Assembly: GCA_028683955.1 (NCBI GenBank)
Contig: JAQUGR010000002.1
Coordinates: forward strand, 248,001-312,000
Length of the DNA stretch: 64,000 nucleotides
Direction: 5' to 3'
Origin: Bacillota bacterium
GTDB lineage: Bacteria; Bacillota; TC1
Below are positions 40,339 to 43,336 of this stretch, one piece after another; the first letter of the stretch is position 1; the number at the start of each line of letters is the position of its first letter. The translations under genes and the position numbers were made by a program. Under the pieces are notes generated by a model. It was given only the letters and a program-made list of their open reading frames with translations, did no database searches and had not been told where the DNA came from.

Positions 40339-40365
40339 CATTACAGGGTTAGAGTGGAGGTAAAA

Positions 40366-40806
40366 ATGAAAGTATCAACAAAGGGCAGATATGCAATAAG
40401 GTTAATGATAGACATTGGGATTCAAAATAATGGTTATGTTAGATTAAAAGATGTTGCTAGAAGGCAAGAGATATCTATTAAGTACTTGGAGCAAATTGTA
40501 GGATCATTACAAAAGTCTGGCTTACTTTTAAGTTCTAGAGGAGCACATGGTGGTTATCGTTTATCAAAGGAGCCTAATGATTATACTATTGGGGAAATAC
40601 TAGGAGCTACAGAGGGTAGTATCGCTCCAGTAAATTGCCTAGATGATGATAAAAATAATTGTGCAAGGTTAAATATATGCTCCACAATAAAATTCTGGGA
40701 AGGTTTAAATGATGTTATAAATGAATATTTAAACAGTCATACCTTAGGTGAATTAATGGAAATTGAAAAAAACATAAAAGAAAAAAACATAGATTATAAC
40801 ATCTAG
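40366..40806 (+). CDS. Rrf2-family regulator (CymR/IscR-like)
   Basis: A 146-residue winged-helix repressor. MKVSTKGRYAIRLMIDIG is the family start; EISIKYLEQIVGSLQKSGLLLSSRGAHGGYRL is the recognition and wing part. Three cysteines in CLDDDKNNCARLNIC could ligate a cluster, as in IscR-like members. The following metY-cysK operon argues for a CymR-like role in cysteine control. The start has GGAGGT before it; a terminator follows at 40847. Confidence 0.9.
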   Translation: MKVSTKGRYAIRLMIDIGIQNNGYVRLKDVARRQEISIKYLEQIVGSLQKSGLLLSSRGAHGGYRLSKEPNDYTIGEILGATEGSIAPVNCLDDDKNNCARLNICSTIKFWEGLNDVINEYLNSHTLGELMEIEKNIKEKNIDYNI

Positions 40807-40846
40807 TAAATGGAGCAACAAATAGGATATATCTATATTATTTGAA

Positions 40847-40874
40847 GGCAGAAAGTATTTTCTGTCTTTTTTTA
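40847..40874 (+). terminator. Terminator after the Rrf2 gene
   Basis: Stem GGCAGAAA (40847-40854), loop GTAT, TTTCTGTC (40859-40866), then a seven-base T-run. Confidence 0.8.
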
Positions 40875-40882
40875 TTTATATA

Positions 40883-40911
40883 TTGACATTGGAGGTTAGG
40901 TTGCATATAAT
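40883..40911 (+). promoter_or_regulatory. Consensus promoter of the cysteine operon
   Basis: TTGACA (40883-40888), exactly 17 bases, TATAAT (40906-40911): a full consensus match. The start of transcription would be near 40918, about 41 bases before the leader peptide ATG. Confidence 0.88.
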
Positions 40912-40958
40912 TAAAACATACTAAACATATAGGAAATATATGCAATGGAGGTGTAAAC

Positions 40959-41051
40959 ATGAACAAGAGTATAAAAATATGTAGGAATAACAGACGAATG
41001 TGCTGTTGCAGCATGATTACAATTAATGAAATTTATATAAGAATAAAATGA
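40959..41051 (+). CDS. Cysteine leader peptide upstream of metY-cysK
   Basis: A 30-codon ORF with GGAGGTG six bases before its ATG. It begins MNKSIKICRNNRRM, then Cys-Cys-Cys (codons 15-17, TGC TGT TGC), then SMITINEIYIRIK. Cys8 makes four cysteines in 30 codons. The Cys codons lie in a small hairpin (TGCTG, loop TTG, CAGCA) that a stalled ribosome would open. The position between a consensus promoter and cysteine biosynthesis genes suggests attenuation that responds to Cys-tRNA. Cysteine-rich leader peptides of this kind are known before sulfur genes in mycobacteria; here it is inferred. No intrinsic terminator follows, so Rho-dependent or translational coupling control is more likely. Confidence 0.8.
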   Translation: MNKSIKICRNNRRMCCCSMITINEIYIRIK

Positions 41052-41070
41052 AATTAAAAAATAAATAAAT

Positions 41071-41092
41071 TAACTTATTAGAAGATAAGTTA
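41071..41092 (+). other. Inverted repeat between cysteine leader and metY
   Basis: TAACTTAT (41071-41078), spacer TAGAAG, ATAAGTTA (41085-41092): a perfect 8-base stem seven bases before the metY ribosome binding site AAGAGG. No T-run, so not a terminator. It may be an operator or part of the leader switch. Confidence 0.6.
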
Positions 41093-41112
41093 GATTTGAA
41101 AGAGGTAAAAAT

Positions 41113-42405
41113 ATGAATGATAAGAAATTAAAATTTGAGACATTACAATTACATTTAGGACAAGAGACAGCGGACAGTGCCACAGGATCAAGAACTGTAC
41201 CAATATATCAAACAACATCATATGTCTTTAAAGACTGTGATCAAGCAGCCAATAGATTTAATCTAAGTGAAGGTGGAAATATTTATACCAGATTAATGAA
41301 TCCAACTTCAGATGTCTTTGAACAAAGAATAGCAGGACTTGAAGGAGGGGTAGCAGCTCTAGCAGTTGCCTCAGGCTCAGCGGCTATTAGTTATGCAATC
41401 CAGAATATTGCTTTGGCAGGAGATCATATTGTGGCAGCCAAGACACTTTATGGTGGAACTTACAATCTATTTTCAAACACTCTTCCTGATTTTGGCATTA
41501 CCACAACTTTTGTAGATGCTGATAATCTAGGTGAAGTTGAAAGTGCTATAAAAGAAAATACTAAAGCAGTATTTATAGAAACCTTAGGTAATCCAAACTC
41601 TAGTATTGCTGATGTAGAAGCTATTGCAGAAATAGCTCATAAACATGGAATTCCATTGATTGTTGATAATACTTTTGCAACACCATATCTATTTAGACCA
41701 ATAGAACATGGAGCTGATGTTGTTGTTCATTCTGCAACTAAGTTCATTGGTGGTCATGGTACATCACTAGGTGGTGTAATTGTTGATGGTGGTACATTTA
41801 ATTGGGCAAGTAATGATAAATTTCCAGGATTAAGTAAGCCGAATCCTAGTTATCACGGTGTTATTTTTACTGACGCTGTAGGTCCAGCAGCCTATATAGT
41901 TAAAATTAGAGTAACTTTATTAAGAGATACTGGAGCTACTATAAGTCCATTCAACTCATTTCTGTTTTTACAGGGTTTGGAAACATTATCCCTTAGAGTT
42001 GAAAGACATGTTGAGAATGCTTTAAAAGTAGTAGAATATTTAAATAGTCATCCTTTGGTGGACAAGGTTAATCATCCAGTACTAGCTGATAATGAATACA
42101 ATAGCTTATATAAAAAGTATTTCCCTAAGGGTGCTGGCTCTATCTTTACTTTTGAAATTAAGGGTGGAGTGAGTGAGGCTAAAAAATTTATTGATAGTTT
42201 AGAGATTTTTTCTTTACTTGCCAATGTTGCAGATGCAAAATCTTTAGTGATACATCCTGCAACAACAACTCACTCACAATTAAGTGGTCAAGAGTTATTA
42301 AACTCAGGGATAAAGGAAAATACAATAAGATTATCTGTGGGAATTGAGCATATTGATGATATCATAGCAGATTTAGATAATGCTTTTAAAGCAATAGGAG
42401 AATAA
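41113..42405 (+). CDS. metY: O-acetylhomoserine sulfhydrylase (MetY family)
   Basis: A PLP enzyme of 430 residues in the Cys/Met metabolism family. It joins sulfide, methanethiol or cysteine with acetylated homoserine or serine. Signature: [32 protein letters not shown], and the PLP lysine in [13 protein letters not shown]. The start fits the family ([11 protein letters not shown]). cysK follows after four bases. Early codons are A/C-rich and later ones T/G-rich. Confidence 0.93.
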
Positions 42406-42409
42406 GAAA

Positions 42410-43336
42410 ATGAAAATTTATAAAAAAATAACAGATTTAATTGGAAGAACGCCTTTGTTGGAGTTATCAAGTTTCGGAGAAAGTCTTGGTTTAAATGCTA
42501 GACTTATTGGTAAAATAGAGTCTTTTAATCCAGGTGGTAGTGTTAAGGATAGAATTGCCATTGCCATGATAGAGGATGCTGAAGTTAAAGGGATTTTGAA
42601 GAAAGGTTCTGTTATCATAGAGCCAACAAGTGGTAATACAGGTATAGGTCTTTCAATGGTTGGTGTTGCTAAGGGCTATAGGGTTATTCTAACTATGCCG
42701 GAAACTATGAGTGTGGAAAGAAGGAGTCTGTTAAAAGCCTATGGTGCTGAATTGGTATTAACTGATGGAGCATTAGGGATGAAAGGTGCGATTGCCAAAG
42801 CCGAAGAGCTTGCCCAGTCTATTCCTTTTTCTTTTATACCGAGTCAGTTTGAAAACGAAGCAAATCCTAGAATTCATTTCAATACTACAGGTCCTGAAAT
42901 ATGGGAAGATACTGATGGTAAAGTAGATATTCTTGTTGCTGGTGTAGGAACTGGTGGTACTATTACTGGTGTTGGTAGTTTTTTGAAAAGTAAGAATCAG
43001 GAAATTGAGGTCATTGCGGTTGAGCCAATAGGTTCTCCTGTTTTAAGTGGTGGAGAGCCCGGTCCTCATAAGCTTCAAGGAATTGGTGCTGGTTTTGTAC
43101 CTGATACCTTGGATGTTAGGGTATATGACCAGATTTTCCAAGTAGATAATGAAGAAGCTTTTAAAACTGCTAAAGAATTGGCTGTAACAGAAGGTATACT
43201 TGTTGGTATATCAAGTGGTGCTGCTCTTTATGCAGGAGTTCAAATTGCTAAAAATCCTAAGAATAAGGGTAAAAACATAGTGGTTATTCTACCTGATGGT
43301 GGAGAAAGATACTTATCTACAGCACTGTTTAATTAA
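42410..43336 (+). CDS. cysK: Cysteine synthase A
   Basis: O-acetylserine sulfhydrylase of 308 residues. The PLP lysine is in GGSVKDRIA, the substrate loop is [17 protein letters not shown] holds the PLP phosphate, and GISSGAALY is the C-terminal loop. It makes cysteine from O-acetylserine and sulfide. Second gene of the operon headed by the Cys leader peptide; a terminator follows. Confidence 0.95.

Follow-up and report, generated by a model that had tools for sequence, protein, structure and literature searches.

A candidate regulatory leader peptide before metY-cysK and its family with a CGA-ATG core

Background

In Clostridia, the control of cysteine and methionine metabolism has been described mainly in terms of T-boxes, S-boxes and CymR-type repressors. 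In Clostridium perfringens, Cys T-boxes control cysK and cysteine transport genes through the charging of Cys-tRNA (PMC2940859); such a T-box is a structured tRNA-binding RNA with no translated peptide, unlike the locus presented here, a short ORF before metY-cysK in a 64,000-nucleotide stretch of Bacillota bacterium DNA (the window), which has no T-box match. In Mycobacterium, Propionibacterium acnes and Bifidobacterium, poly-Cys leader ORFs lacking a conserved terminator hairpin have been described for cys/cbs operons (PMC1262725), and the title of Canestrari 2020, cited in PMC13236596, presents the mycobacterial ones as leaderless. The window ORF resembles these actinobacterial leaders in being short, in carrying a Cys run near its stop, in preceding sulfur genes and in the lack of a conserved terminator hairpin; it differs in phylum, in having metY as its first gene and in that the invariant element of its family is CGA-ATG and not the Cys run. 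It also has a Shine-Dalgarno (SD) sequence and a predicted 5' UTR, in contrast to the mycobacterial leaders as that title characterizes them.

The uORFC-8-2 motif lies before cysS in Rhodobacterales, contains tandem Cys codons and has been proposed to act by ribosome-mediated attenuation, always with a terminator stem (PMC8632094). A uORF with tandem Cys codons is thus shared with the window leader; the terminator stem, the alphaproteobacterial lineage and the gene (cysS) are not, and no CGA-AUG core has been described for the motif. In Salmonella, the speF leader ORF34 responds to arginine and ornithine, and its regulation is kept when rare Arg codons are swapped for frequent ones (PMC6386406). 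Common to both systems are rare Arg codons in a conserved leader whose peptide core is itself conserved and through which a downstream gene would be controlled; however, the rare Arg codons of ORF34 are replaceable, whereas CGA is invariant in nature in the present family. On sequence comparison, the family is set apart from known Cys leaders by this invariant CGA-AUG, by an alternation of UGA and UGY, by its genes and by its lineage.

CGA is a rare Arg codon and is poorly decoded. In Salmonella his-leader assays it was decoded more slowly than CGU or CGC, albeit by the same tRNA (PMC4046918), and in B. subtilis the translation of lacZ was not impeded by four CGA codons (PMC10454642). No description of an RM/CGA leader was found in the open-access literature searched, a scope that mostly leaves subscription journals outside.

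The leader ORF of metY-cysK

The locus is preceded by an Rrf2-family regulator gene with its own intrinsic terminator, after which a promoter, a conserved box, the leader ORF and the two sulfur genes follow (Table 1), with a distance of 5 bp between metY and cysK. The sequence-only reading had claimed a consensus promoter, a strong ribosome binding site and a 30-codon ORF containing TGC TGT TGC directly upstream of cysteine and methionine sulfur genes, and this description was borne out. The peptide has four Cys codons, three of them consecutive, and a 5' UTR of ~40 nt is predicted for the ORF from the promoter position and the SD. The Cys triplet alone is weak evidence because TGYTGYTGY occurs 12 times in the window when both strands are counted; the case rests on comparison and conservation, by which the short ORF is judged to be a genuine, previously unlisted leader.

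Table 1. Features of the metY-cysK locus, in positions of the window
Feature	Position	Strand	Evidence or remark
Gene of an Rrf2-family regulator that may control the operon in a CymR-like way	40354..40806	+	PF02082 2.4e-34; NF047409 CymR 109.8 bits, cut-off 195
Intrinsic terminator of the upstream Rrf2-family regulator gene	40844..40869	+	
Sigma-70 promoter TTGACA-17-TATAAT	40883..40911	+	12/12 consensus bases; kept in genus
Conserved box CATACTAAACATATAGGAAATATATG, putatively operator-like	40917..40942	.	almost unchanged in the genus (five genomes)
SD GGAGGTG of the leader ORF	40947..40953	+	
Leader ORF, 30 aa, peptide MNKSIKICRNNRRMCCCSMITINEIYIRIK	40959..41051	+	ATG at 40959, stop at 41051
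CGA-ATG (Arg-Met) core, invariant in family	40995..41000	+	family comparison
Cys codons TGC TGT TGC, immediately 3' of the CGA-ATG core	41001..41009	+	
Small hairpin TAACTTAT/ATAAGTTA before the metY SD	41071..41092	+	read from sequence
SD of metY	41101..41105	+	predicted open whether or not a ribosome occupies the core
metY, O-acetylhomoserine/O-acetylserine (OAH/OAS) sulfhydrylase	41113..42405	+	TIGR01326 664 bits
cysK, cysteine synthase A	42410..43336	+	TIGR01139 453 bits

Neither the T-box model RF00230 nor a SAM riboswitch or any other Rfam RNA matched the window at the gathering threshold, or positions 40800-41150 up to an E-value of 1, and a T-box at this locus is excluded at Rfam thresholds; SAM riboswitch families were likewise not found in 20 relatives. 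The adjacent regulator does not pass the curated CymR cut-off; CymR-like control of the operon is possible, as the Rrf2-family gene lies directly upstream and belongs to the same Rrf2 superfamily. At other loci, a T-box leader is present ~2 kb upstream of metY in L040 (675-927; Rfam, just above gathering), and an apparent S-box (SAM-I), recognized by eye only, replaces the leader before metY of Clostridium beijerinckii (L008).

Conservation within the genus

The sequence-only reading had made its case depend on the ORF and its Cys codons being conserved in relatives, and this conservation was found in 5/5 genomes of the genus, where the promoter, the SD, the start codon, the Cys codons and a GNNRRM block are all kept (the window itself has R in place of G). 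Across the five genomes, start codon and core are a constant distance apart; the N-terminal codons and the tail of the leader drift. The box between the promoter and the SD, CATANTAAACATATAGGAA, is also kept in the five genomes and, lying right after the -10, it is possibly the operator of an Rrf2/CymR-like repressor. Visual inspection turned up look-alikes of the box ahead of metY in loci of other lineages (L013, L018, L031 and L048). Further CGAATGTGYTG sites in the genus lie in unrelated sequence, giving no second copy of the leader, and the stretch read at the one NlpA/MetQ gene of the window's genome does not contain the leader either.

The wider leader family

A short ORF containing Arg-Met is also frequent at this position in metY loci from other genomes. 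A search for metY in the order of G403, together with upstream fetches, gave 163 non-redundant upstream regions, and the hits from these were combined with genome-wide pattern hits into a family of 71 non-redundant leaders from Clostridia and a few other lineages; as the genomes are related, the family counts are not independent events. An SD-like start is present in 66/71 leaders. The 8-mer CGAATGTG was observed upstream of metY at 18 of 112 loci versus ~0.8 expected, where the 112 regions include a few same-genome duplicates. A first pattern, GGNMGNATGTGYTGYTG, gave mostly chance matches across the phylum. The leader peptides matched no NCBIfam model, and the family with the CGA-ATG core is likewise matched by no Rfam model.

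From the comparison, the invariant part of these leaders is the in-frame CGA-ATG (Arg-Met) pair and not the Cys run. Since most of the 71 members were gathered via CGAATG, the claim of invariance is carried by two unbiased searches. Among in-frame Arg-Met pairs of short upstream ORFs, collected with no assumption about the Arg codon, 54/61 are CGA-ATG, and the remaining 7 are not recognisable family members. When any Arg codon (MGN) was allowed, 147 genomes yielded 27 sites, of which all 23 with CGA are leaders and all 4 without it lie inside other genes; the 23 leaders precede metY (14), NlpA-like lipoproteins (6), a unit of DUF2292 and an ABC transporter (2) and an NMT1-like binding protein (1), with Pfam applied to a subset. 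A separate search for AAYTTYMGNNNNGGNCGAATG in 391 genomes of the class returned 24 sites, 19 preceding metY (by BLAST), 2 preceding NlpA/MetQ lipoproteins and 3 due to chance. CGA is the rarest Arg codon of the downstream genes (22/776), and at the other Arg positions within the leaders all six codons are in use, with CGA at 14/125.

Further readings of the core were tried and rejected. Editing of the mRNA by TadA involves a UACG motif, and the base before CGA varies in the leaders. Pairing of CGAAUGUG with the downstream mRNA, as a cause of its invariance, had a mean z of -0.46 over the 71 leaders and was not significant in the window; such pairing is strong in a few loci (L210, L228, L249, L018, L031 and L231).

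The family is found in front of metY, of metQ-type genes and of ABC transporter operons; the genes behind its members are metY with cysK, NlpA/MetQ lipoproteins with an ABC ATPase, DUF2292 with an ABC permease and ATPase, and the NMT1-like binding protein. Unlinked copies of cysK had no leader in the regions scanned. In L276 and L277, the leader lies before the gene of a small DUF2292 protein, which is followed by ABC permease and ATPase genes, and this ties DUF2292 to the same putative control.

The codon after Arg-Met in the 71 leaders is TGA in 21, TGT in 21, TGC in 18 and another codon in 11, with TGG, TAA and TAG found in none. Cys outnumbers every other residue in the six positions that follow the core (92/251), and C-x-C occurs in 21/39 leaders having Cys directly after it. 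Because Cys codons are absent from 17/71 leaders, Cys-tRNA is ruled out as the general signal of the family; the Cys codons would be a selected feature of part of the family, the window included, and not its common denominator. The sequence-only reading had placed the sensor in the Cys run, where a ribosome short of Cys-tRNA would pause. Its conserved, Cys-codon-rich leader before sulfur genes stands, but as the conserved core the Cys run gives way to CGA-ATG; sensing of Cys-tRNA by the Cys codons of the window leader is plausible and would not be the whole story. Before the core, an NFR class of 39 members has free third codon positions and largely fixed first two positions from L-L-R-x-N-F-R-x-G to the core. 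Decoding of the TGA alternating with TGY as selenocysteine was rejected by inspection, as the codons after TGA are not conserved.

Proposed mechanism and alternative explanations

Sequence comparison establishes that these ORFs form a family with a defined reading frame, that their CGA does not vary, that they are enriched in Cys codons and that they are associated with sulfur amino acid genes. The window ORF likely serves the metY-cysK operon as a regulatory leader peptide, at which a ribosome stop would raise downstream expression, and the family probably lets ribosome pausing report a shortage of sulfur or cysteine. The ribosome would slow at CGA-AUG and, with Cys-tRNA scarce, would stop at the UGY codons after the core, the stopped ribosome then leading to higher expression of metY-cysK. 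More tentatively, and with doubts outweighing confidence, the leaders may represent a sulfur sensor of a new class, with the CGA-AUG pair, through its A:I wobble in the P or E site, pausing the ribosome beside UGY or UGA. On the same tentative footing, metY, metQ and transporter operons throughout Clostridia would have their sulfur status reported not by a long stretch of a single amino acid but by one codon context combined with a short nascent peptide. A leader-peptide layer this widespread, with a rare codon that does not vary, would amount to a separate sulfur sensor in Clostridia and would be an unusual natural case of selection fixing one synonymous codon; it would also offer a handle on the regulatory use of codon context (CGA, inosine wobble) in bacteria.

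The strongest rival is arrest by the nascent chain, which may serve at UGA as an alternative device in the members that stop after RM. In its general form, a leader of the LLRxNFRxGRM type would stall at Arg-Met followed by UGA or Cys on a sulfur metabolite (O-acetylserine, O-acetylhomoserine, methionine or SAM, for example), like TnaC or SpeFL, and the Cys codons would be secondary. In favour of such an arrest are the peptide-level constraint that the NFR class shows over the ~10 residues leading up to the core, the 21/71 leaders that end directly after RM, every one by TGA, and the 17 members without Cys. We nevertheless regard it as doubtful, as the window's genus has GNNRRM only and no LLRxNFR part, the C-x-C tails suggest selection for Cys codons and the fixed synonymous codon is left unexplained. 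Sensing of Met-tRNA, in which CGA in the P site would make an A-site AUG very sensitive to charged Met-tRNA so that the leader reports methionine shortage, would account for the AUG that follows CGA in every member and for targets that include metY and NlpA/MetQ-type methionine transporter genes; yet it is unlikely, since a lone AUG codon would be a weak sensor, Cys codons are strongly enriched, the operon contains cysK and the slowing from CGA to AUG has to be assumed for these bacteria.

The eight bases of CGAAUG(UG) are nearly invariant across many lineages, CGA is fixed beyond the amino acid and UG follows AUG in 60/71 leaders, all of which could instead mark a site on the RNA (or DNA) that a trans-acting protein or small RNA recognizes by its sequence, with the ORF frame as a side constraint. 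Such a site seems improbable given that it lies in the frame of an ORF with an SD and upstream codon periodicity, that UG is lost in the CCCRM type of leader and that a pairing partner in cis is generally missing. It is very improbable that control is by transcription only, with the adjacent Rrf2/CymR-like repressor acting at the box after the -10 and the ORF incidental: the operator-like box is conserved in the genus next to an Rrf2 gene and its exact pattern, CATACTAAACATATAGGAAATATATG, is found nowhere else in G000 and G001, but the core of the ORF is conserved in many genomes, mostly outside this genus.

Output of the leader

In the proposed mechanism of ribosome stopping at or after the CGA-AUG core, the output in relatives could be antitermination (CCCRM type) or freeing of the metY SD, and in the window it may be Rho-dependent termination or mRNA stability. 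As expected of a trp/his-type attenuator, the window has a frame-conserved leader ORF with putatively relevant codons, those for Cys; the intrinsic terminator that such an attenuator has before the first gene was found between leader and metY neither in the window nor in the genus. For the mutually exclusive antiterminator hairpin of such attenuators, single folds were inspected, and the core showed no pairing in the window. Release of the SD, as in translational attenuators of the erm type, was not seen in the window, where the metY SD is predicted to be unpaired at 0.91 when free and at 0.90 with the core blocked; in the genus also, the metY SD is predicted to be open in both states. The sole visible structure between the window leader and the metY SD is the small hairpin, whose bases differ within the genus. 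Hairpins like it, with other base pairs, occupy the same place in L001, L087 and L088 of the genus.

Among the relatives, blocking the core is predicted to free the SD (gain > 0.2) at 18/68 loci versus 4-10 with shuffled leaders, with clear cases in L040, L236 and L248. Three-arm attenuators were recognized by eye in relatives of the CCCRM-L type (L022, L207, L210, L215, L221 and L228), where the post-core codons GCTCCCGGG can pair with CCCGGGAGC or, alternatively, CCCGGGAGC can pair with CCCGGGC-TTTTT; U-run hairpins were scored in L207, L215, L221 and also L195. These attenuators upstream of metY are classical in form, with a leader of the CCCRMLCSRA type, and come from the order of G403 and from one Synergistes MAG, a distribution that may reflect horizontal spread.
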